NCBI GenBank assembly: GCA_030065815.1 | Contig: JASJCU010000027.1 | Coordinates: 1 to 47,213, forward strand | DNA length: 47,213 nucleotides | Reading direction: 5' to 3' | Origin: Gammaproteobacteria bacterium | GTDB lineage: Bacteria > Pseudomonadota > Gammaproteobacteria > Chromatiales > Chromatiaceae | Shown here: positions 3,402 through 44,480 of the stretch, piece after piece | How positions within the stretch are numbered: position 1 is the first letter of the stretch | Layout: every line of letters begins with the position of its first letter | The notes under the pieces: generated by a model | Seen by the model: the letters and a program-made list of their open reading frames with translations, nothing else | The model's database searches: none | What the model was told of the DNA's origin: nothing | Position numbers and translations under genes: made by a program

Positions 3402-4898
3402 ATGGACTACAGCTGCAAGCTCGGCCCCGCAGGGAATCTCAAGACCGCCTGCCTGGTGGTCGGCGTATTCGCGAAGAACCGCATGCCGCCGCAGACCGAG
3501 GTGCTCGACGATGCCCTGGGCGGACAGATCAAGGCCGTGTTGAAGCGCCAGGACTTCGCCGCCGACACCGCTGACACGCAGATGCTCTACGAACCGCGCG
3601 GTGCTGCGGCAGCCCGCATCCTGCTGGTCGGGCTCGGGGACCACAAGGACTTTGCTCCAGGCCTGTTCGGCAAGGCGATGCAGGCCGCGTTTGCTGTGCT
3701 CAACAGGTCCGGCGCCGCGGACTGCGCGCTCGTGCTGCCGGGCACGGGCGAAAACGACGATACCTACCGCCTGACTCGCGCCGCCGTCGACGCCGCCGAG
3801 ACCGCGGTGTACCGCTTCGACCGCTGCAAGAGCGAATCGAAACCACCGAAGAAACCGCTCAAACGCATAGCCATCGTCGTCGACAATCGCGCGCAGCTGG
3901 CCAGTGCCAAGCGCGCCGCCGAGCACGGCCGTGCGATCGGCAACGGCAGCCGCTTCGCCAAGGATCTCGCCAACCTGCCGGGCAACCTGTGTACACCGAG
4001 CTACCTGGCCGAGCAGGCCCAGGCGCTGGCGCGCGGCAAACGCAAGCTCAAGGCCAATGTGCTCAGTGAGGCGCAGATGGACAGGCTGGGCATGGGCAGC
4101 CTGTTGTCGGTGTCGCGCGGCAGCCGCCAGACGGCCAAGCTGATCGTGCTCGAGTACAAGGGCGGCAAGGCCAGCAGCAAGCCGATCGCGCTGGTCGGCA
4201 AGGGGCTGACGTTCGACGCGGGCGGCATCTCGATCAAGCCGGCGGCCAATATGGACGAGATGAAGTACGACATGTGCGGCGGCGCCAGCGTGCTCGGTAC
4301 GCTCGCGGCCGTGGCCGAGCTGGAACTGCCACTGAACGTCGTCGGCGTCGTGCCCAGCTCGGAAAACCTGCCCGATGGCGACGCCAACAAGCCGGGCGAC
4401 ATCGTGACGTCGATGTCCGGCCAGACGATCGAGATCCTGAACACCGATGCCGAGGGCCGGCTGATATTGTGCGACGCGCTGACCTACACCGAACGCTTCG
4501 ACCCGGCCGCCGTGATCGACGTCGCCACCCTGACCGGGGCCTGCATCGTTGCGCTCGGTGACCAGGCCAGCGGCCTGATGACCAACGACGACGCGCTCGG
4601 CGCCGAGATCCTCGAAGCCGGCGAGGCCTGCGGCGACCGCGCCTGGCAGCTGCCGCTGTGGGACGAGTACCAGAAGCAGCTCGACAGCAACTTCGCCGAC
4701 ATGGCCAACATCGGCGGCCGCGGCGCCGGCACGATCACCGCGGCCTGCTTCCTGTCGCGCTTCGCCAAGAAGTTCAAATGGGCGCACCTCGATATCGCCG
4801 GCATCGCATGGCTCGGTGGCGCGCAGAAAGGTGCAACCGGGCGACCGGTGCCGTTGCTGACCGAGTTCCTGCTGCGGCGCGCCAAGGCGAAGATGTGA
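3402..4898 (+). CDS. pepA: Leucyl aminopeptidase PepA (M17 family)
   Basis: This is a cytosolic M17 aminopeptidase that removes N-terminal residues using two divalent metal ions. In some gammaproteobacteria PepA also binds DNA at recombination sites and at carAB. The protein has 498 residues, the usual length. The N-terminal half is the macrodomain-like part. The catalytic half shows VGKGLTFDAGGISIKP, the metal-binding MDEMKYDMCGGA segment and the M17 signature NTDAEGRLILCDALTY. The start at 3402 follows CGAGGAC and gives a family-like N-terminus (MDYSCKLG); the ORF extends a further 34 codons upstream without support. holC follows 13 bp downstream, as is common in gammaproteobacteria. Confidence 0.96.
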   Translation: MDYSCKLGPAGNLKTACLVVGVFAKNRMPPQTEVLDDALGGQIKAVLKRQDFAADTADTQMLYEPRGAAAARILLVGLGDHKDFAPGLFGKAMQAAFAVLNRSGAADCALVLPGTGENDDTYRLTRAAVDAAETAVYRFDRCKSESKPPKKPLKRIAIVVDNRAQLASAKRAAEHGRAIGNGSRFAKDLANLPGNLCTPSYLAEQAQALARGKRKLKANVLSEAQMDRLGMGSLLSVSRGSRQTAKLIVLEYKGGKASSKPIALVGKGLTFDAGGISIKPAANMDEMKYDMCGGASVLGTLAAVAELELPLNVVGVVPSSENLPDGDANKPGDIVTSMSGQTIEILNTDAEGRLILCDALTYTERFDPAAVIDVATLTGACIVALGDQASGLMTNDDALGAEILEAGEACGDRAWQLPLWDEYQKQLDSNFADMANIGGRGAGTITAACFLSRFAKKFKWAHLDIAGIAWLGGAQKGATGRPVPLLTEFLLRRAKAKM

Positions 4899-5558: not shown

Positions 5559-7655
<2,097 letters not shown>

Positions 7656-35816: not shown

Positions 35817-37775
35817 GTGAACACATCGCAACTGCCCAGCGTTGAACTGGTTCAGGGCGCACCGCCGCCTGTCGCCACCGGGCCGGCACGGTGGCGGCGC
35901 TGGAAGGTGTTCTTCAGCGTACTGCTGATCACCGCGGCCATCGGGCTGGCACTGGTCTACAGCCGCTCACCGGTGTACCGCGCGTCGGCCTCGGTGCTGA
36001 CCGTCAAACCGAAGGCGGTCGACACGCGCAGCGCCGAGGCCGACATCGAGCACGTCGCGATCCAGGGGCGGTTGCTGCTCGGCGAGGAACTGCTCGGCCG
36101 TCTGTCGTTGCAGCTCGAAGACGCCGGCGACGGCCTGATCGCCGGACTCGACGCATTGCGCAACATGCTGTCGGTCGTGCCGGTGCCTGATACCAACCTG
36201 CTCGAACTGCGCGCCGAGGGCGCCGACCCGCAGCAGCTGCAGCGCGTCGTCAACCGCTGGGCAGAATCGTACGAGGTATTCCGCGCCGAGGAGATCGAGG
36301 CCGCGACCGGACGGACGACGGCCGAGATCGGCGACCAGCAGGAGCAACTCGCTGGGAAGATCGAGAGAGCGCGCGCCGAGCTGCTGGCGTTTCGCCAGGC
36401 CAACGAGATCGTCGGACTGGAACGCGGCGAGAACCGCGCGCTGGCGTCGCTGAAAGGCCTCAATCAATCGCTGAACAAGGCGCGCGACACGCTGATCGAG
36501 GCGCGCGCCCGCAAGGCGGCGATCGACGAGGCGATCGCGCGCGGCGAGACCGTCGTGCCGAGCGAGCAGAAGACGCAGATCGCCGACCTCAGGCTCGCGG
36601 TACAGCGCGGCCAGGCGCGGCTCGCCGATCTGCGTCAGCGCTACACCCAGGCCTACCTCGATCGTGACCCGGATCTCAAGCAGCTGCCCGCGACCCTGCG
36701 CGAACAGGAGCGCGAACTGCAGAGCGCGCTGCGCATCGCCAAGGCCACGGTCGCCGACGAGGCCTCCCAGGCGGTCGAGGCGGCGCGCGTGTCGCTCGGC
36801 GTGATCGAGCGCAAGCTGATCGAGCAGCAGGATGCCGTGCAGCAGTTCAACGAGAGCTACAAGGCGTTCAAGGCACTCGAAGAGGACCTCGCGCGGCTCG
36901 AACGCCTGCACGCCGACAACAGCGAGCGGCTGGCCCAGATCGAGGTCAAGAACCTGCAGAAATACCCACCGATCCAGATCGTCGAATGGGCGCGTGTACC
37001 GACCCGGCCGATCCATCCGAACTACGAACGCGACCTGCTGATCGCCCTCGCCGTCGCCCTCGGCCTGGCGCTGTTCGTGACCTGGCTGGTCGAATACCTG
37101 AGCGAGAAGTCAAGCGCGTCGGCCGCCACGCCGCAGATCGGCGTGCGCATCTACGCCGGCGACCAGGCGCCGGCGCTCGCTGCTGCCGCCAATGCGCCGT
37201 TGCCCCACCAGCCCGCCGCTGCACCACCATTGCAGGCGCCGGCCGATCTGCCGGTACTGCCGCGCGAGCTGAGCGGCGCCGAGGTGCAATCGGTGCTCGC
37301 GGCACTCGACTCGACCACGAGCGGCTACGCCGCGCTGCTGCTGTCAGGCGTGTCGCCGTACGAACTGGCGCTGCTGCACGCCAACTGCTTCGATCGCACC
37401 GGTGGCACGGTCGGCGTACCCGGCGCCGGCGCGCGCCGCCTCGCGGTGCGCAGCGACGTCTGGCCGCGCCTCGATGCGATCATCGGCGACATGGACGACG
37501 CGCACCTGAAGCTGCCGGTGGCCGAACTCGATCTGCGTCTGCGCACCGCCGCAGAGCGCGCACGGGTCGCCGACCCGCGCGGCGTCACGGCGCTGGCACT
37601 GTGGCACACCTATGTCGTGTTCCTGATTCGCCAGGGCATCGATGTCACGACCCTGATCGCCCGCGTCGGCAACATGCCGCCCGACATCCTCGACACGCTG
37701 CTGCACTACGCACCGCCCGGCGGTCACCGGCCGGCCGGCGGGATCGACTTCACCTACCCGGCACTGGGCTACTGA
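35817..37775 (+). CDS. Wzz/GumC-like chain-length protein with a degenerate recombinase-like C-terminus
   Basis: This 652-residue protein has two parts. Residues 1-430 are a Wzz/GumC-type polysaccharide co-polymerase: a first helix at about 30-49, a periplasmic Wzz domain, a long coiled coil (about 160-375), the proline motif VPTRPIHPN (394-402) and a second helix at about 406-425. No Walker-type tyrosine kinase follows. After a Pro/Ala-rich linker (430-482), residues 483-632 resemble the catalytic domain of tyrosine recombinases: LSGAEVQSVLAAL, ALLLSGVSPYELALL, GTVGVPGAGARRLAVRS and LWHTYVVFLIRQGIDVTTL. Catalytic residues are lost (G-L-R to G-V-S, H-L-R-H to A-L-W-H). No other polysaccharide gene is in the window. 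The start is a GTG. The fusion reading is mine. Confidence 0.75.
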   Translation: MNTSQLPSVELVQGAPPPVATGPARWRRWKVFFSVLLITAAIGLALVYSRSPVYRASASVLTVKPKAVDTRSAEADIEHVAIQGRLLLGEELLGRLSLQLEDAGDGLIAGLDALRNMLSVVPVPDTNLLELRAEGADPQQLQRVVNRWAESYEVFRAEEIEAATGRTTAEIGDQQEQLAGKIERARAELLAFRQANEIVGLERGENRALASLKGLNQSLNKARDTLIEARARKAAIDEAIARGETVVPSEQKTQIADLRLAVQRGQARLADLRQRYTQAYLDRDPDLKQLPATLREQERELQSALRIAKATVADEASQAVEAARVSLGVIERKLIEQQDAVQQFNESYKAFKALEEDLARLERLHADNSERLAQIEVKNLQKYPPIQIVEWARVPTRPIHPNYERDLLIALAVALGLALFVTWLVEYLSEKSSASAATPQIGVRIYAGDQAPALAAAANAPLPHQPAAAPPLQAPADLPVLPRELSGAEVQSVLAALDSTTSGYAALLLSGVSPYELALLHANCFDRTGGTVGVPGAGARRLAVRSDVWPRLDAIIGDMDDAHLKLPVAELDLRLRTAAERARVADPRGVTALALWHTYVVFLIRQGIDVTTLIARVGNMPPDILDTLLHYAPPGGHRPAGGIDFTYPALGY

Positions 37776-38448
37776 GCGAATCCGCCGGTGCCGCGAACAG
37801 CGCGCGATAGCGCACCAGCAGGCAGCGCGCACGCCGCTCGTCACCGTCGGCACGGGCCTGCCGGATCAGTTCGCGCCAGGCCTCCGCGGTTGCATCTGCC
37901 GCCGGCCAGTACTGTTCGCAGTCCGCCTCTGCGGCCGCCAGCGGGGCGCTGGCCGAATCGACACTGTCCGTAACGGCCCTGGGTTCGAGCACGCGACCGA
38001 ACGCCGACGACGACCGCGTTTCACCGTCGCGCCCCGACGGCGCGACGCCGCTCTCCGCCGCCTGCCGCTTGACCGCCGCCGGCGCGCCCCGGACCGCCGG
38101 CGGGCCGGCCCGGTCGGCCTCGCTGGTGAGACCATCGACGCTGGGCGACGCCGCGACCTCGGCCGCCGGCGTTGGCGCTGGCGCCGCCTGCTGCGCCGGC
38201 AGCGTCGGCGGCACCGGCACAGAAACCGGCGCAACCTCGTCGGGCGGCACGACATGCAGCACGCGCCAGCCGATGCCGACCCCGAGCACCAGCGTCGCCG
38301 CGACCGCCCAGGGCGCGTAACGTCGCCGCGACCTGCGTGCCGCGCGCCGTGCCGCGTCCAGAATCGCCGCGTCGCTGTCGGCGGTCGGCTCGGCACGCGG
38401 CGCGCGGCGGTACAGCGCGCTGATGCGCGGGTCTTCGGTATCACTCAT
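37750..38448 (-). CDS. Putative anti-sigma factor (membrane protein)
   Basis: This 232-residue protein starts with a short cytoplasmic part (about 1-43, rich in Arg/Ala), has one membrane helix at about 44-63 (YAPWAVAATLVLGVGIGW), then a long Pro/Ala-rich periplasmic linker and a small helical C-terminal part with CEQYWPAADATAEAWRELI. There is no zinc-type HxxxCxxC. Its start overlaps the ECF sigma gene by eight bases, the usual anti-sigma position, which is the main reason for the call. It ends inside the 3' end of the convergent Wzz-like gene (26-bp overlap). Confidence 0.6.
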   Translation of the reverse strand: MSDTEDPRISALYRRAPRAEPTADSDAAILDAARRAARRSRRRYAPWAVAATLVLGVGIGWRVLHVVPPDEVAPVSVPVPPTLPAQQAAPAPTPAAEVAASPSVDGLTSEADRAGPPAVRGAPAAVKRQAAESGVAPSGRDGETRSSSAFGRVLEPRAVTDSVDSASAPLAAAEADCEQYWPAADATAEAWRELIRQARADGDERRARCLLVRYRALFAAPADSLSSPVPGR

Positions 38449-38986
38449 CGCAACCCTCCAGGCCGTCGCGCAGGCGGCGCAGCGCGTAGCGCAGCCGGCT
38501 CTTGACGGTCTCCCGGGCGACGCCGGTGACGTCGCCGATCTGCGCCAGGCTCAGCCCGGCCTCCTGCTGCAGCAGGAATGCGCTGCGCTGTGCCTCGGGG
38601 AGGCGACCCAGCAGCGCCAGCAGGCGCTCGACACAGTCGCGCAAAAGCTGTGCGATATCCAGGTCGTGCGCGGTCGACGGCAAGGTCGCGACGCTGTCGG
38701 CATCGACGTGTCCGACGTGGCGCTCGCGGCGCAGCGCATCGACGACGAGGTTGTGTGCGATGCGATACAGCCACGGCTTGAAGCGCCGGTCGCGGCGCCA
38801 CTGCCGGCGCGCCTCGATGACCCGCATCCACACGTCCTGGTACAGCGCTTCGGCATCCATGTCGGCCGTCGCGAGCCGCTGCACGTAGCGAAACACCGGT
38901 CCGCGATGGCGCCGGTACAGCGCGTCGAAGGCCGCACCGTCGCCATCGCAGTAGCGCGCCATCAGCTGCTCATCGCTGGTCGTCAT
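38441..38986 (-). CDS. ECF-type RNA polymerase sigma factor
   Basis: This 181-residue sigma-70 family factor has only regions 2 and 4, so it is an ECF sigma. Region 2 contains AFDALYRRHRGPVFRYV and the -10 recognition part (ALYQDVWMRVIEARRQW, FKPWLYRIAHNLVVDALRR). Region 4 is RLPEAQRSAFLLQQEAGLSLAQIGDVTGVARETVKSRL, a clear helix-turn-helix (residues about 128-165). The ATG at 38986 lies inside the end of the upstream vWA gene (17-bp overlap), so the three genes vWA, sigma and anti-sigma are coupled. The inducing signal is not evident. Confidence 0.92.
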   Translation of the reverse strand: MTTSDEQLMARYCDGDGAAFDALYRRHRGPVFRYVQRLATADMDAEALYQDVWMRVIEARRQWRRDRRFKPWLYRIAHNLVVDALRRERHVGHVDADSVATLPSTAHDLDIAQLLRDCVERLLALLGRLPEAQRSAFLLQQEAGLSLAQIGDVTGVARETVKSRLRYALRRLRDGLEGCDE

Positions 38987-40685
38987 GACGGGCCGTGTTC
39001 TCCGTCGGGCGGCGGTCCAGGCTCTCGGCGAGGCCCACCAGGCGCAGGAAGTCCGCGCGGTAGCCGTGATCATCCGAACCGCGCGCGCCACGCGCAAGCT
39101 CGAGGATATCGCGGTAGCCGAACCCGCGGAGGTGGGTCGCACCGCGCAGCTGCTGGGCGAACGCCGCGACGGCCGCGGCGAAGCGGAAGTCGTCACCGGC
39201 CTCGCCGAGTTCGCGGTGCGCCATCGCATCGCCCACGGCGACCGTCAGCAGCTCGCTGCGTCGTGCCTGCGGCAGCTTGTAGCGCAACCTGACAAACGCA
39301 TACTCGTCGACGTGCGGCGGCACCGCGGGCGCTACGTCCGCCGCGTAGCGCAGCGGATCGAGCAGGCCGCCGTCCCCGCCCGCCAGGGTCAGTTCGTACA
39401 GCGCGACGACGCTGTGCCCGGCGCCGAGCTCGCCGGCGTCGACCTGGTCGTTGTTGAAGTCCTCGCGACGCAGGCTGCGGTTCTCGTAGCCGATCAGGCG
39501 ATACTCGACGACCCGCGCCGGGTTGAACTCGACCTGGATCTTGACGTCCTTGGCAACCGTCATCAGCGTGCCGCCCATCTGCTCGACCAGGACCTTCTGC
39601 GCCTCGAGCAGGCTGTCGATGTACGCGTAGTTGCCGTTGCCGTGATCGGCCAGCTGCTCGATCAGGCGGTCGTTGAGGTTGCCGCGGCCGAATCCCAACG
39701 TCGTCAACGCGATACCGTCCTCGCGTTCGTGCTCGATCAGGTCCAGCAGTGCGCGCTGATCGACGGTCCCGACGTTGAAGTCGCCGTCGGTCGCGAGCAC
39801 GACGCGGTTGATGCCGCCGTCGATGAAGGCCTCGCGCGCCTTGGCATAGGCGAGCCTGATCCCGGCGCTGCCGTGGGTCGAGCCGCCGGCGCCGAGTTGG
39901 TCGAGCGCGGCCTCGATCGTCGCCTGGCGGTCGCCTGGGGTCGGTTCGAGCACGACCCCGGCGGCACCGGCATAGACGACCAGCGTGATGCGGTCGTCGG
40001 CGTCCATGCGCCGCGTCAGCAGCTTGATCGAGCGCTTCAGCAGCGGCAGCTTGTCGGCGCTGTTCATCGACCCTGACACGTCGATCAGGAACACCAGGTT
40101 ACTCGCCGGCAGGTCGGTGCGCGGCAGGTCCCAGGCCTTCAGCGCGATCCGCAACAGCCGGTTGCCGGGGTTCCACGGCGACGGCGCCAGCGCGGTGCTG
40201 ACCCGGAACGGCACATCGCGGCCCGCCGGCGCAGGATCGGCATAGTCGAAGTAGTTGATCATCTCCTCGATCCGCACGGCGTCTGTGACCGGCAGGCGGC
40301 CCTCGTTGAGCATGCGCCGTACGTTGGCGTAGGCAGCGGTATCGACGTCGATACTGAAGGTCGAGACCGGCTGTGCCGACACCGCCGTGACGCCGTGGCT
40401 CTCGAAGCTGGCGTAGCGCTCGCGATCGACGCCGGGCGACGGCGCCACGATCGGCAGGTGCTGCCGCGCGGCGGCCGGCGCCGCGGCATCCTGTGCGTAC
40501 AGGCCCGACAGCGACGCCGCCGCGCGCCGTTTGGTCGCCGCGTCGCCGCGCGTCTCGGCGACCGCTGGCGGCCCGGCCGCGGCCGGCGTGGTTGGTTCGC
40601 CGAGCGGTGCGCGCGGCTGCGTGCATGCGGCGACGGCGACGGCGACGACCAGCGCCGCCGGCATCAGGGTGTACAGGGCTTTCAT
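38970..40685 (-). CDS. vWA-domain lipoprotein (YfbK-like)
   Basis: This 571-residue protein is a predicted lipoprotein (lipobox VAAC, Cys21) with a long disordered N-terminal part. A YfbK-type region follows (STFSIDVDTAAYANVRRMLN, residues about 108-127). A von Willebrand factor A domain carries an intact metal site DVSGS (D202, S204, S206), the GGSTHG threonine loop and TDGDFN. The C-terminal DUF3520-like part completes the family pattern. vWA proteins bind partner proteins through the metal. The ATG follows GGAGGTGG. It is the first gene of an operon that ends with an ECF sigma and its likely anti-sigma, so it may act in that signalling path. Confidence 0.9.
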   Translation of the reverse strand: MKALYTLMPAALVVAVAVAACTQPRAPLGEPTTPAAAGPPAVAETRGDAATKRRAAASLSGLYAQDAAAPAAARQHLPIVAPSPGVDRERYASFESHGVTAVSAQPVSTFSIDVDTAAYANVRRMLNEGRLPVTDAVRIEEMINYFDYADPAPAGRDVPFRVSTALAPSPWNPGNRLLRIALKAWDLPRTDLPASNLVFLIDVSGSMNSADKLPLLKRSIKLLTRRMDADDRITLVVYAGAAGVVLEPTPGDRQATIEAALDQLGAGGSTHGSAGIRLAYAKAREAFIDGGINRVVLATDGDFNVGTVDQRALLDLIEHEREDGIALTTLGFGRGNLNDRLIEQLADHGNGNYAYIDSLLEAQKVLVEQMGGTLMTVAKDVKIQVEFNPARVVEYRLIGYENRSLRREDFNNDQVDAGELGAGHSVVALYELTLAGGDGGLLDPLRYAADVAPAVPPHVDEYAFVRLRYKLPQARRSELLTVAVGDAMAHRELGEAGDDFRFAAAVAAFAQQLRGATHLRGFGYRDILELARGARGSDDHGYRADFLRLVGLAESLDRRPTENTARHDDQR

Positions 40686-41050
40686 GGCTTCCACCTCCGC
40701 GTGGTTTCCGGTGCGTTCAACCCGAAATACGCACGGCGGTGGCACGCGGGGTTAACCGGCATGCTGCATGAGCCGGACAGCGCCAAATCTGCGCGTATCT
40801 GAATATTGCGGTGGTTGCCGTCAGCTTCTGCGCAATCCGGAGATCGCCGTGTCTGACTGGCGCCGTTCCGCTCGGATCCCCGCTCGCTGTGGCCGGGCTC
40901 TCACCCGAGCCAGGGTTACGGCCATGACTGTCGCTGCAAGCCGGCGCCACGACGGCTGCCAAATCCCCAGGCTCTCCGAATGCTCACGCAACATGCAGGT
41001 CAAGCGGTCGCGCCCGCGACAGACGGCGGGACGCTCCGCAGCGGCCGCTG
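40686..41050. other. 365-bp region without a supportable gene
   Basis: I see only the upstream region of the vWA-sigma operon and the 3' flank of the small membrane protein gene. Its ORFs are GC-driven and lack start signals. The vWA ribosome binding site (GGAGGTGG) is at its lower-coordinate end. No convincing terminator is seen. A weak GGCTC / GAGCC inverted repeat lies at about 40896-40911. Confidence 0.5.
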
Positions 41051-41443
41051 TCAGCGGGCACCGACAACCGTCGCAGCGACGGCCGCCGACATCGACAACA
41101 CACAGAACAGCACGAACAGGCCCCGGCCGATGCCGACCAGCGCGCGCGATGCCGGGTCGTCGCGACGCGGCGTAGCGCCGGCCGGGCGCGCGGTCACGGG
41201 CCGCCAACGTCCGGCACGGATCGCCGCGAGCGCGGCGAAACCGTCGCCGTTGCGCACGATCTGGCGCGCCGCGTGCACACGCACCAGCACGTCGGGCAAT
41301 GACAGCGCCGGATAGTCGCGCCAGACCTGCCAGCTGATGCCGGGTTCGCGCAGGCGCTTGCGGTAGCGCAGGAACAGTTCGCTGCCGACGACGTCGAGGT
41401 ACTGCGTCCACGGCGTCGCGAGGTACGGGGTGGTGTGGGTCAT
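41051..41443 (-). CDS. Unrecognised small membrane protein
   Basis: I do not recognise this 130-residue protein. It starts MTHTTPYLATPWTQYLDVVG, has a basic, helical middle (RYRKRLREPGISWQVWRDYP and about 30 residues after) and ends with a single membrane helix at about 104-126 (GIGRGLFVLFCVLSMSAAVA). The ATG at 41443 lies 42 bp from a perfect palindrome that sits between it and the divergent WYL regulator, so it is a likely target of that regulator. A longer upstream ORF would run through the palindrome and regulator and is rejected. No function is proposed. Confidence 0.6.
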   Translation of the reverse strand: MTHTTPYLATPWTQYLDVVGSELFLRYRKRLREPGISWQVWRDYPALSLPDVLVRVHAARQIVRNGDGFAALAAIRAGRWRPVTARPAGATPRRDDPASRALVGIGRGLFVLFCVLSMSAAVAATVVGAR

Positions 41444-41484
41444 CGGCCGGGCCTTTTGGTGTCGACACCGCCAGTCTGCCGGCC

Positions 41485-41511
41485 CTACTGGCTCACCAGG
41501 TGAGCCAGTAG
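41485..41511. promoter_or_regulatory. Operator-like palindrome 1 (WYL regulator intergenic)
   Basis: A perfect 27-bp inverted repeat has 12-base arms (CTACTGGCTCAC / GTGAGCCAGTAG) around CAG. Its core is TGGCTCA-N5-TGAGCCA. It lies between the divergent small membrane protein and WYL regulator genes, 42 and 57 bp from their start codons. The same core recurs at 43912-43930. This is the likely binding site of the WYL regulator and would give autoregulation. Confidence 0.75.
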
Positions 41512-41567
41512 TAGGGTTGCAATGTGCCAGACGGCCGCGCGCCGCGGCCCAGCCTGGGGAGCCGCGC

Positions 41568-42554
41568 ATGAGCCAGACCGAACGCATCCACCAGATCGTG
41601 CACCTGCTCGAGAGCAGCCGCCACCCGGTGCCGTTGCGCCGCTTCCTCGACGAGCTCGAGGTCTCGCGCGCGACCTTCAAGCGCGACCTCGGCTACCTGC
41701 GCGACCGCCTCGGCGCACCGATCGCGTGGCGGCGCGGCGACGACGGCCGCCCCGGCGGCTACGTCATCGATGCGTCGCCGGACGCTCGCGGCCGCGACTT
41801 CGGCATCCGCGGGCTGTGGTTCAACCAGAGCGAGATCCACGCGCTGCTGACCATGCACCAGCTCGCCAGTCGCATGCAGCCCGGCCTGCTCGCCGAGCAG
41901 TCACAGGCCCTGTTGACGCGCATCACACACATGCTCGGCAGCGCCGACGACGACCCGGAGGCGGTGTTGTCATATATCCAGATCGTACATTCGGCGACCC
42001 ACCGCCGGCCGAGTGCGTGGTTCGAGGTCATCGCCCGCGCGACGGTACGCCGGCACCGACTGGCGATCCGCTATTTCACGCGCAGTCGCAACCGCCGCGG
42101 CGAGCGCACGGTCTCACCGCAGCGCCTGCTGCATTACCGCGAAAACTGGTATCTGCTGGCGTGGTGCCACACCGCGCGTGATCTGCGGTTGTTCGCGCTC
42201 GACGCGATCGAGGACGCCAGCCGCCTGTGTCAGACCGCGCGGCGGGTCAGCGACGCGCGCCTGCAACGCGCGATCGGCGACGGCTTCGGTATCTTCGGCG
42301 GCCGTGCGGTCAGGCGGGCGCGGCTGCGCTTCACGCCCGAGGCGGCACGCTGGATCCGCGACGAGACCTGGCATCCGCGGCAGCGGCAGCACTGGGACGG
42401 CGAGCGGCTGATCCTCGAGGTTCCGTACGCGCAGAGCCGCGAGCTGATCATGGAGATCCTGCGCCACGGCAGCGATGTCGAGGTGTTGGCGCCGGCCGAG
42501 CTGCGCCGCGAGGTCATGCAATGCCTGCGCGCCGCGCTCGCGGGATACGGCTGA
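41568..42554 (+). CDS. WYL-domain transcriptional regulator (YafY-like)
   Basis: This 328-residue regulator has an N-terminal winged helix (ERIHQIVHLLESSRHPVPL then SRATFKRDLGYLRDRLGAPI, residues about 5-55) and a WYL domain. The WYL motif region is RTVSPQRLLHYRENWYLLAWCHTARDLRLFALDAI (residues about 180-214). A C-terminal WCX part starts at about 245 (ARLRFTPEAARWIRDE). WYL proteins sense nucleic acids or small ligands and often control DNA-damage, restriction or phage-defence genes. The ATG follows GGGGAG at good spacing. A perfect palindrome lies 57 bp upstream, and a second copy precedes the convergent DUF2130 gene. Confidence 0.93.
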   Translation: MSQTERIHQIVHLLESSRHPVPLRRFLDELEVSRATFKRDLGYLRDRLGAPIAWRRGDDGRPGGYVIDASPDARGRDFGIRGLWFNQSEIHALLTMHQLASRMQPGLLAEQSQALLTRITHMLGSADDDPEAVLSYIQIVHSATHRRPSAWFEVIARATVRRHRLAIRYFTRSRNRRGERTVSPQRLLHYRENWYLLAWCHTARDLRLFALDAIEDASRLCQTARRVSDARLQRAIGDGFGIFGGRAVRRARLRFTPEAARWIRDETWHPRQRQHWDGERLILEVPYAQSRELIMEILRHGSDVEVLAPAELRREVMQCLRAALAGYG

Positions 42555-42577
42555 GCGCGGCGGTTACCGGTTCACGA

Positions 42578-43840
42578 TCACGGCAGCCTGGCGATATCGT
42601 CGAACTGCGGCAGGGCGTCGTGCGACACGCCCTGCAGGTCACCACACAGGCCGAGCAGGTTGCCGGTCGCGCGCTCGATCTGCGCCTCGCGCTTCTTCCA
42701 CAGGCGCAGCATCGCCGCCCTTTCCTTGTCGAGATCGTCGCGCATCTGCGCGCAGGCCTCGACCACGGCACGGACCTTCTGTGCGAACTGCGCACTGGTG
42801 ACGTAGTGATAGAGCGCCTCCATGCTCTGGTCGCGGCCGCTCGCGATCGCCTTCTGCCGCTGCGCCTCGATCAGCACGGTGCGCAGCGCCTCGGCCAGCG
42901 CCCTGACCAGCTCCGGGCGCACCAGCCAGATGCCCTCATAGACGACCATTGGCTCGCTGACGCCGGCCGGGAACGCGGTACTGACCAGTACCGCCAGTTC
43001 GCCGCCGGCGGCCTGCTGATCGTCCTTGAGCTTGCCGACCCAGGCGTTCGACCAGTTTTCGGCGCGCTTCGTCTCCCAGATGATCCTGCCGCACACGGTG
43101 CCAGAACGCTGCCGTACCGTGTGCACGACGTCGGCACCGCGCGCCCCCTTTCTGACCGGCTCGACGGCGTCGAACGGGAACGCCGTGCTCAACAGGTCCT
43201 CGAGCGCCAGCTCCAGTACCTCGCCCTGCAGCTGCTGCGAGCCCTGCTCGAGCTTGCGCTTGAGTTCATCGTTGGCCTTGTGCGCATCGTCGATGCGCTT
43301 GCGCAACTCGGCCTCACGCAGGCGGAAGCCCTCGGCGACGCCCTCCTCGATGCGTCCGCGCTCGGCATCGACGCGACGCTGCACCTCGAGCGCCAGTTCT
43401 TTCTGCTGCTCCTCGAGCACCGCCTTCTGCCTGCGCAGCGTGAGTTCGGCGTCGCGAAACGCGGCGAGTTTCTCGTCCTTGGCCGCCAGCTCGGCCTGCA
43501 GGGTCGCCATGCGCTCGGCCTGCTCGGCCTGGGCGCGCGCCGTGGCGTCGCGCGTCGCCGCGTCGAGCTGCGCCTTGGCCCGCTCGCGCTCGGCACGGCT
43601 CTCGGCGAGCTCGGCCTGCAGGCTCGCGAGCTGGTCTTGGAAGCGCCGCGCGGCGCTGCGTTCGGCATCGGCGGCCAACGACTCGCGCAGCTGGCGACGC
43701 TCGCGGTCGAGCATATCGTCGTACTCGGCCTCGAAGCGCTCGATCAGCTGGTGCGCTATCGCGTCGTGCAGCTCGAATGCCGTGCCGCAGTGTGGACAGG
43801 CGACCTCGGCGAAGGCGTCGACGATGATCTTCTTGCTCAT
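42578..43840 (-). CDS. DUF2130 protein: CxxC, coiled coil and PD-(D/E)xK-like domain
   Basis: This 420-residue protein belongs to the DUF2130 family. The N-terminus has ACPHCGTAFELHDAIAHQL with one CxxC pair. A long Ala/Glu/Arg coiled coil spans about 35-205. The C-terminal domain has GEVLELALEDLL, KGARGADVVHTV and GRIIWETKRAENWSNAWVGKLKDDQ (positions 251-275). D237, E256-x-K258 and Q275 look like a PD-(D/E)xK nuclease core. Relatives are found in diverse bacteria, often near restriction or defence genes, and their role is not established. A copy of the WYL operator lies about 70 bp upstream of the ATG. The gene converges on the WYL regulator with 23 bp between stops. Confidence 0.87.
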   Translation of the reverse strand: MSKKIIVDAFAEVACPHCGTAFELHDAIAHQLIERFEAEYDDMLDRERRQLRESLAADAERSAARRFQDQLASLQAELAESRAERERAKAQLDAATRDATARAQAEQAERMATLQAELAAKDEKLAAFRDAELTLRRQKAVLEEQQKELALEVQRRVDAERGRIEEGVAEGFRLREAELRKRIDDAHKANDELKRKLEQGSQQLQGEVLELALEDLLSTAFPFDAVEPVRKGARGADVVHTVRQRSGTVCGRIIWETKRAENWSNAWVGKLKDDQQAAGGELAVLVSTAFPAGVSEPMVVYEGIWLVRPELVRALAEALRTVLIEAQRQKAIASGRDQSMEALYHYVTSAQFAQKVRAVVEACAQMRDDLDKERAAMLRLWKKREAQIERATGNLLGLCGDLQGVSHDALPQFDDIARLP

Positions 43841-43907
43841 GGCGATCGGGTTCCTGTTCAGCCACGCGCGACCGCGGTGACGGCCGACCGCAATAAGGTT
43901 ACCGCAG

Positions 43908-43935
43908 CTACTGGCTCAACGGATGAGCCAATCAG
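43908..43935. promoter_or_regulatory. Operator-like palindrome 2 (upstream of DUF2130)
   Basis: CTACTGGCTCA, five bases, then TGAGCCA (43908-43930) repeats the core and left arm of the palindrome at 41485-41511, with the same five-base spacer length. On the minus strand a TTGAGC / TTATTG pair 17 bases apart would put the site over the -35 region of a DUF2130 promoter. The repeat is seen directly; the promoter is a weak match. Confidence 0.7.
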
Positions 43936-43946
43936 CGACGGGCCCG

Positions 43947-44480
43947 TCAGGGACGCCGTCGGTAGACGTCGTCGAACAGCGCCTCGAGCCGCGGATGCTC
44001 GCCGCGCAGGCCGTCGATGACCTGTTTCGCCCAATCGAAGTAGTCGCGACAGCGCTCGATAGGCCAGCCGGCCGGCGGACTGTCGATGACGTCGCGCAGG
44101 TTGCAGATCTTGTCGGCGAGTTTGACCGCCCTGGCCGCGGTCGACAGGGTCGCCGCATGGTCGATCTGGGCCTGCTTGCGCGAGGCCTTGTCGAGCCCCC
44201 CATCGTCGGTGACCTCGACGACGTACGCCGCGACGCGGTCTCCGAAATGGATCGCGATCTCGTCCGCGGTGGTCTCGGTATCTTCGATCGTGTCGTGCAG
44301 CAGCGCCGCGATGACGGTGTCGATGTCGTTGACGCCGGCCTCGTTGACCAGCACGTCGACGAGCGCCACCGGGTGATTGATGTACGGCGACGCCGCTTCG
44401 TCCTTGCGCCGCTGATCCTTGTGTTTGTGCGCCGCGAACGCGATGGCCCTGACCAGCAGCACCATGTTGTCTGTTTCCAC
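43947..44480 (-). CDS. Mesh1-type small alarmone hydrolase (HD domain)
   Basis: This 177-residue HD-domain protein resembles MESH1 and the hydrolase half of SpoT, which remove the 3'-pyrophosphate of (p)ppGpp. The metal site is complete: H36 (YINHP), H62-D63 (ALLHDTIEDT), E66-D67 and D123 (VKLADKICNLRD). There is no synthetase, TGS or ACT domain, so it is a stand-alone hydrolase. The start is the GTG at 44480 with GGAG seven bases upstream. It lies upstream of the DUF2130 gene on the same strand, but the second palindrome sits between them. The substrate may be ppGpp, NADPH (reported for human MESH1) or another nucleotide. Confidence 0.9.
   Translation of the reverse strand: METDNMVLLVRAIAFAAHKHKDQRRKDEAASPYINHPVALVDVLVNEAGVNDIDTVIAALLHDTIEDTETTADEIAIHFGDRVAAYVVEVTDDGGLDKASRKQAQIDHAATLSTAARAVKLADKICNLRDVIDSPPAGWPIERCRDYFDWAKQVIDGLRGEHPRLEALFDDVYRRRP

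Follow-up and report, generated by a model that had tools for sequence, protein, structure and literature searches.

Twin palindromes beside a WYL-domain regulator gene as predicted operators of a DNA-repair and anti-phage regulon in Gamma- and Betaproteobacteria

The locus and its two palindromes

The window discussed here, meaning the whole 47,213-nucleotide stretch that was analysed, is the entire contig C151 (JASJCU010000027.1) of a Chromatiaceae genome of 3,890,528 bases in 172 contigs. It carries a gene for a WYL-domain regulator, a divergent gene for a small membrane protein, a gene of the DUF2130 family and a Mesh1-like hydrolase gene, and between them lie two copies of one palindrome, the predicted operators with which this study is concerned. 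The features of the locus are listed below; gene calls, here and throughout, come from a rough GC-frame picker of open reading frames.

41051 to 41443, minus strand: small gene of 130 amino acids (aa) with a hydrophobic stretch at residues 109-127; divergent candidate target of site 1
41473 to 41478, minus strand: −10-like hexamer CAGACT for the small gene, 10 base pairs (bp) past site 1; extended element with 0 mismatches
41485 to 41511, no strand: site 1, the 27-bp palindrome (core 41489-41507); predicted operator in the gap between the small gene and the WYL gene
41518 to 41523, plus strand: −10-like hexamer TGCAAT for the WYL gene, 10 bp past site 1; extended element with 1 mismatch
41568 to 42554, plus strand: WYL regulator of 328 aa, helix-turn-helix (HTH)-WYL-WCX by profile matches; nearest solved structures PafBC, PafC, then DriD-type
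42578 to 43840, minus strand: DUF2130 protein of 420 aa with CPxC motif, long predicted helices and a PD-(D/E)xK-like core; candidate target of site 2
43896 to 43901, minus strand: −10-like hexamer TAACCT for DUF2130, 10 bp past site 2; extended element with 0 mismatches
43912 to 43930, no strand: site 2, second predicted operator core, 71 bp ahead of the DUF2130 start
43947 to 44480, minus strand: Mesh1-like HD hydrolase (HD_4); syntenic neighbour, by position no target of site 2

Site 1 reads CTACTGGCTCA-CCAGG-TGAGCCAGTAG and is a 27-bp palindrome in which only the central base is unpaired, so that an earlier sequence-only reading of this DNA, which had called it perfect, was right but for that base. 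The core of site 2 is an exact TGGCTCA-N5-TGAGCCA with an equal spacer and the left flank CTAC common to both sites, just as that reading had described it. The exact core is not frequent: the genome scan, a check named beforehand, found 2 copies in 3,890,528 bases, and these are sites 1 and 2, 2.4 kb apart. With up to 2 mismatches allowed the genome holds 13 core sites as compared to 5 for a reversed control pattern, and 10 of the 11 additional sites overlap predicted coding regions on the rough gene calls. A scan of the window at up to 3 mismatches returned sites 1 and 2 alone, each with 0 mismatches; the shuffle mean at that tolerance is 2.25, so the window count of 2 is by itself not unusual.

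The regulator gene matches the profiles for WYL (8.9e-20), WCX (1.4e-17) and HTH_11 (1.9e-5; 24.9 bits, just under the cut-off of 25), which is the HTH + WYL + WCX composition of a WYL-domain transcription factor. The DUF2130 gene matches its family at 7.5e-61 and the Mesh1-like gene matches HD_4 at 9.6e-17, while the small 130-aa protein has zero matches in Pfam, PADLOC and NCBIfam. No window protein besides WYL fitted a PADLOC anti-phage model; for DUF2130 there were just weak matches to LmuB (1.3e-4) over its coiled-coil part, residues 9-161. The Mesh1-like stop codon lies 16 bp ahead of site 2 on the same strand and the DUF2130 start lies beyond it; because the Mesh1-like gene is thus upstream of site 2, the site can serve DUF2130 and not Mesh1.

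Conservation among congeneric genomes

The genus comparison covered the window genome (G000) and 8 others, 4 of which (G002, G003, G004 and G006) have a close WYL protein at 69-71% identity. All 4 carry the exact core in the gap between the WYL gene and the small gene, with N5 and flanks that differ, so the core does stand beside orthologous WYL genes; across the congeners the half-site letters are constant and the loop varies. Homologs of the small protein were found in 5 of 56 genomes, precisely the 5 with a close WYL (window genome included), and in none of the other 51.

The second site is kept less regularly. It stands 71 bp upstream of the DUF2130 start in G000 (exact), G002 (1 mismatch) and G004 (2 mismatches, symmetric), and its distance to that start and to the −10 is preserved in all three despite diverged flanks. 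A site ahead of DUF2130 is hence seen in 3 of the 4 genus genomes with both genes, as against 0 of 3 that have DUF2130 and lack an intact close WYL, which supports the tie between WYL and DUF2130 that the palindrome had first suggested. Of the four-gene neighbourhood proposed by the sequence-only reading, the WYL gene, the small gene and their site are kept in 4 of 4 congeners; no DUF2130 match was found in G006, and site 2 is missing in G003.

Three genomes have DUF2130 and lack an intact close WYL. G001 keeps DUF2130 and Mesh1, its WYL gene is a C-terminal remnant and no site is present at up to 1 mismatch; on its sequence this is a natural loss of the regulator along with the operator. The remnant lies at G001:C24 111055-111183 (L073 about 1290-1460), beside intact DUF2130 and Mesh1 genes. 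G007 has DUF2130, no WYL and no site at up to 1 mismatch, and G005, with a 51% DUF2130, has no site ahead of that gene. G006, for its part, has WYL, the small gene and Mesh1; beyond its one exact site it carries two with 1 mismatch at other places.

The Mesh1-like hydrolase had been counted in the proposed regulon, and this part of the proposal falls. Its gene is upstream of site 2 and persists both in G001, with its WYL remnant and no site, and in G006, with no DUF2130 match; we therefore treat it as a syntenic neighbour and reject it as a regulon member on position and on synteny without WYL.

A search for cas1 (PF01867) found none in the 5 genus genomes with a close WYL (89-100% completeness), nor in G001 or G007, and found it in G005 and G008, in the latter about 8 kb from a distant WYL. 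By this search the window branch is not one of CRISPR-associated WYL regulators with cas genes in the same genome, and since cas1 was not found in its genomes the branch appears to do without a CRISPR link while keeping the operator.

The palindrome across the class

We scanned 369 class genomes, of which 96 match the WYL subfamily profile (E ≤1e-50). The exact core occurs in 18 copies in 17 of the 369, as compared to 2 for the reversed control, and exact sites are found in 9 of the 96 subfamily genomes versus 8 of the remaining 273. The class-wide locus test then took in 68 of the 103 WYL matches, made up of 29 loci returned by the scan and 39 that were fetched, with the window excluded: in 18 of these loci a site with 2 mismatches or fewer lies no more than 300 bp upstream or 150 bp downstream, and 300 permuted half-sites run over the same loci scored a mean of 0.14 and a maximum of 2 loci each. 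Among all 16,384 possible 7-mer half-sites with an N5 spacer TGGCTCA came first, at 22 loci versus a mean of 1.36. The share of loci with a site declines with distance from the query profile, the successive bit-score bins giving 11/12, 1/4, 4/18, 2/19 and 0/15. A strict palindrome score upstream of WYL genes of the 45%-identity family found little, and a looser core scan of that family found near-sites in some, often past the WYL stop.

The suggestion that the palindrome is a WYL-family operator is in this way borne out as a prediction, and we consider the palindromes to be, probably, operators of a WYL-domain regulator subfamily spread across Gamma- and Betaproteobacteria; this estimate is a joint one with that of the activator regulon given below.

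A promoter element without a −35

The sites also have a constant relation to the promoters behind them. In 37 oriented site-gene pairs, hand-selected from sites ahead of a gene, similarity to TATAAT peaks 10 bp past the site (z 11.2, with 99% of the maxima from shuffling below 3.5), and the peak persists without G002 and G004 (z 8.8 in the set of 27). For sites flanked by a gene on a single side, A at position 2 together with T at position 6 is found on the gene side in 13 of 19, as compared to 2 of 19 on the opposite side. A −35 was not seen at spacers of 16, 17 or 18 (0.93, 1.44 and 0.59 of 6 matches, respectively). As the −10-like hexamer begins 10 bp beyond it, the site covers about −41 to −23, and it takes the place of a −35 at a fixed distance from the −10, the distance being 9 and not 10 bp at 3 of 5 recA promoters. 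In the window the hexamer is present in both directions from site 1 and beyond site 2.

Taken as one composite element with up to 2 mismatches, site and hexamer give 75 matches in 24 genomes (many being one palindrome read twice) versus 16 for the control, and the three best matches in the window genome are the promoters of the small gene, WYL and DUF2130. An order-wide check was made on 41 genomes of the order of G567, with G567, G472 and G362 previously examined. At up to 1 mismatch it yielded 24 matches versus 0 for the control, in 16 of the 41 genomes, and these resolve into 18 distinct sites, of which 14 belong to WYL and a 179-aa partner, 3 to recA (G596, G614, G615) and 1 to cas3 (G567); sites from G567 and G472, to which these genomes are related, had gone into the definition of the element, and G567 itself gives 1 of the 18. 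On the partner side the offset-10 hexamer is [CG]AT[AG]AT in 13 of these 14 WYL/partner gaps, and the 14th match (G593) faces WYL; at the G603 locus the partner alone was found and at the G587 locus WYL alone. In this order the site stands just about 20 bp before most WYL starts.

The partner is a 179-aa protein encoded divergently from WYL in 12 order-check genomes and in G472 and G567 (L213:2560-3099, L351-L373), with an HNHPW-like motif and no Pfam match; it takes the position held in the window by the small membrane protein.

The recA sites lie 131-155 bp upstream of the start in all 5 genomes examined, and the hexamer towards recA is 9 bp away in G567 (TACAAT), G472 (CATAAT) and G596 (TATAAT), 10 bp away in G615 (TATTAT) and weak in G614. 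At two of these promoters (L282 about 4540-4640 and L317 about 6075-6150) a shared GTTC-N7-GTTC block, with TCTTTAT between, follows the WYL site and is itself followed by TGTGTGATAATT. The block resembles what we take to be LexA boxes of the alphaproteobacterial kind, and recA may there have WYL and LexA promoters side by side.

An entirely different reading would make the palindromes RNA hairpins, terminators or a repeat element independent of WYL. Both sites could form a stem of at least 7 bp, and site 2 does follow the Mesh1-like stop; against this, constant half-sites surround a varying loop, the pattern tracks WYL genes and sits in divergent gaps, no T-run follows the palindrome and the −10-like hexamer holds a fixed position on the gene side. 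We rejected the reading on these grounds and give it next to no chance.

Genes behind the sites in relatives

The targets in relatives were read by Pfam from the genes behind the sites. RecA is found behind sites in G567 (0 mismatches) and G472 (1), and RecC and RecB behind an exact site in G051, where the predicted recC start is a few bp past the site and the true start may be later, because the Pfam domain starts at residue 19. A Metallophos/AAA pair behind a 1-mismatch site in G578 is read, from its domains, as SbcD/SbcC-like, and RmuC follows a 2-mismatch site in G296. ARPP-1 lies behind sites in G455 (1 mismatch), G549 (0) and G578 (0), Cas3 behind sites in G377 (2), G484 (2), G567 (1) and G270 (1), and an HD + DEAD Cas3-like protein behind a site in G345 (2); some second-tier sites lie farther from WYL, ahead of type I Cas3-like genes. 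Outside the window genome there are 16 exact sites, among them one each before recA, recC and a T5orf172 gene.

In 15 site-bearing genomes we counted 36 sites at up to 1 mismatch versus 5 for the control pattern, and 26 of the 36, on the analyst's reading, are at a WYL, DUF2130, repair, ARPP-1, Cas3 or helicase gene. The link to defence and DNA damage, previously argued from the family alone, is thus met with in relatives, where the sites mark recA, recC-recB, SbcCD-like, rmuC, ARPP-1 and cas3 genes; in the window genome they mark just DUF2130, the small gene and WYL.

The DUF2130 gene and its product

A scan of genome contigs with a DUF2130 alignment gave at least 80 loci, and the counts that follow refer to the matches listed. 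The WYL subfamily is in-locus for 8 of them, 3 being the congeners G002, G003 and G004, and a ninth locus, L135, with a WYL match of 19 bits only, was counted among the other 72. A site at up to 1 mismatch is present in 7 of the 8 WYL-bearing loci (the eighth, L122, has one with 2 mismatches) versus 1 of the 72 others. That single locus, L117 of Rubrivivax pictus, has a site flanked by DUF2130 and the zorD gene of a Zorya system, and the WYL gene of this organism, at another locus, is preceded by two exact tandem sites.

The Rubrivivax pictus locus (L117 1731-8709) runs from zorC-zorD of the Zorya-like system directly to DUF2130 and an ASCH gene. Zorya was considered as a target and rejected: the site comes after zorD and before DUF2130 and so, by position, serves DUF2130 alone.

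The betaproteobacterial loci L112 and L114 have a large gene with two tandem sites at its start; behind it come WYL, a further site (1 mismatch in L112, 2 in L114), a NOV_C protein (identified by scan in L112) and DUF2130. The large gene of L112 encodes 1,136 aa with a Cas4-like region (PADLOC), RNase_H_2 and an AAA_11/12 helicase; the open reading frame called for that of L114 begins ahead of its tandem sites. Sites at DUF2130 were further found in G575 (1 mismatch), G578 (exact, 0.4 kb upstream) and G580 (in the gap shared with WYL).

It is conceivable that site 1 alone is a real operator, site 2 being an inherited by-product and DUF2130 an ordinary housekeeping gene. G003 has no site 2 and the siteless loci make up 72 of the 80 listed (at up to 1 mismatch), as such an account would have it; against it stand the spacing to start and −10 kept in G000, G002 and G004 despite diverged flanks, and the DUF2130 sites of G575, G578 and G580. 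We regard the by-product account as improbable, and the DUF2130 gene here probably belongs to the same DNA-repair and defence response as the site-bearing genes of relatives.

The protein has a CPxC motif and about 190 residues of long predicted helices, after which come strands and a helix; this last part contains D237 and E256-x-K258. Across 38 DUF2130 sequences the D, E and K do not vary, and they lie on or beside predicted strands, in keeping with the conserved D...E-x-K on the core sheet of PD-(D/E)xK nucleases. A Foldseek search of the PDB with a model of the protein (pTM, its predicted template-modelling score, 0.38) returned largely nucleases at the top (SPARDA, ST1444 resolvase, MspJI, BstEII) and some helical Rep15, with a best E of 1.8e-3 and low TM-scores. 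DUF2130 is likely to be a DNA-processing nuclease that would be induced on damage or infection, possibly together with the small membrane protein in the window lineage.

RmuC, a coiled coil with a putative nuclease core, invites comparison with this putative nuclease, the more so with rmuC among the genes behind sites. Homology between the two was considered and set aside: there is no significant profile match, and hhalign gave a probability of 0.6% (with 2 sequences only on the RmuC side).

Activation or repression

A solved-structure search with the window WYL protein ranked PafBC first, over the full length (8.3e-27), then PafC (2.9e-17), DriD (8tp8, 1e-10), BrxR (4e-8) and CapW (3.2e-4), so that among solved WYL regulators it is nearest to PafBC and DriD. 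From extracts of the published reports, the binding sites of DriD overlap the −35 and keep a constant spacing to the −10, both −35 and −10 being poor, and the operon that DriD activates next to its gene is transcribed divergently from it (PMC12340889), while PafBC is activated by single-stranded DNA and replaces −35 recognition (PMC11804915). DriD, an activator of Caulobacter crescentus, is thus alike in having WYL and HTH domains, a palindrome over the −35, a site in a divergent gap and a DNA-damage regulon. It is unlike in its operator, given in that extract as ATACGAC-N7-GTCGTAT as compared to TGGCTCA-N5-TGAGCCA here, so that our palindrome is not a DriD operator; in its merely moderate sequence similarity; and in its targets, which here are recBC, SbcCD-like, rmuC, CRISPR, ARPP-1 and DUF2130. 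PafBC, the mycobacterial DNA-damage activator, is the best solved relative over the full length and shares the replaced −35 recognition; however, it is a heterodimer with a −26 motif, as compared to a single gene and a palindrome here. The WYL gene sll7009, in the extract describing it, adjoins type I cas genes (PMC4012209) and represses subtype I-D, unlike the window branch, in whose genomes cas1 was not found. No description of a TGGCTCA-N5-TGAGCCA operator was found in the literature searched (open-licence PMC), which is not proof of its absence.

From the computed operator, −10 spacing, conservation and target lists we infer that a WYL dimer would bind promoters whose −10 (about yAnnaT) has no −35 to go with it, at roughly TGGCTCAY-N3-RTGAGCCA in the −35 region, 10 bp before the −10 (9 bp at several recA), and would recruit RNA polymerase to them in the manner of DriD and PafBC. 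The WYL domain probably receives its signal by binding single-stranded DNA or oligonucleotides. The regulon would comprise genes for DNA double-strand-break repair and anti-phage genes in a composition that differs by lineage; its members in the window lineage would be WYL itself, the gene for the small membrane protein and that for the putative nuclease DUF2130. We put the probability that this is a DriD/PafBC-like WYL activator of DNA-repair and defence genes, acting through these operators, at roughly 0.75.

Alternatively, the same operator and regulon might belong to a BrxR/CapW-like repressor that covers the −35 and is released on ligand binding, and the sequence-only reading had indeed thought of WYL repressors. 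BrxR and CapW are WYL regulators of defence islands, and BrxR represses by binding inverted repeats of 11 bp that are separated by 5 bp, and has a second box at a different promoter within its island (PMC9122601); the palindrome at 41485-41511 has this 11-5-11 geometry. An operator centred near −32 would obstruct RNA polymerase, and in the order of G567 a site so close to the WYL starts could block WYL transcription. Yet the −10 spacing is fixed in many unrelated promoters with no −35 under the site, and a derepressed promoter would still require one; BrxR and CapW, moreover, rank below PafBC in the solved-structure search, and their target set is different. Because of the fixed −10 distance, the lack of a −35 and the kinship with PafBC and DriD we favour an activator, and consider repression a distinctly less probable, if serious, contender.

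A number of observations weigh against the activator regulon as we draw it, beginning with the existence of WYL repressors such as BrxR and CapW, which lends repression some probability. Of the exact sites beyond the window genome, 16 in all, only 3 have a WYL gene in the surrounding 3-kb locus; 8 are within predicted coding regions and 2 further ones are intergenic. More distant members of the WYL subfamily are often site-free (2/19 at 350-370 bits, 0/15 at 330-350 bits carry a site). Within the genus, G003 has WYL and DUF2130 side by side and no site within 130 bp before DUF2130 (best 7 mismatches); G005, which has no WYL, carries two 1-mismatch sites, one coding and one intergenic; and G008, with a distant WYL (40%) and no DUF2130, keeps one 1-mismatch site, inside a coding region. 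Two of the 3 order-check recA matches (G596, G614) have the matched hexamer facing away from recA. Of the 36 near-exact sites, 10 have no visible target of the expected kind: 2 each in G051 and G580 and 1 each in G567, G575, G578, G270, G328 and G345, the single G345 site having been left unexamined. Finally, the choice of the 37 promoter pairs was the analyst's, and the order-check genomes, though mostly new to the analysis, are related to two that contributed sites to the element's definition.

Overall, the sequence-only interpretation is partly supported: its WYL-DUF2130 link was correct and extends well past the window, and the repressor-type action it implied is not favoured. What is new here is the operator, the promoter geometry and the set of targets predicted for a WYL regulator of repair and defence genes; that WYL proteins regulate such genes was known, and for few of these numerous regulators are operator, targets and promoter logic known. 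This leads us to speculate, with somewhat better than even odds, that Gamma- and Betaproteobacteria have a DNA-damage and anti-phage regulon under one WYL activator subfamily, and not under LexA alone, in which the element TGGCTCAY-N3-RTGAGCCA-N10-yAnnaT ties recA, recBC, SbcCD-like, rmuC and type I CRISPR genes to one signal and DUF2130 serves as the DNA-processing nuclease. One short element would then predict targets at little background and connect repair (recA, recBC, SbcCD-like, rmuC) to phage defence (CRISPR, the Cas4-like helicase-nuclease), and the uncharacterised DUF2130 family would gain a testable role. The recA sites would open a second, WYL-driven route of DNA-damage induction to direct testing beyond actinobacteria and Caulobacter.

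Other observations

The intergenic operator-like site of G005, with 1 mismatch, lies at G005:C453:29794-29812 (L066:5795). Elsewhere in the window (37750-40745) a gene for an extracytoplasmic function (ECF) sigma factor adjoins a VWA/YfbK_C gene, and this cluster is also found past the small gene in G002 and G006.

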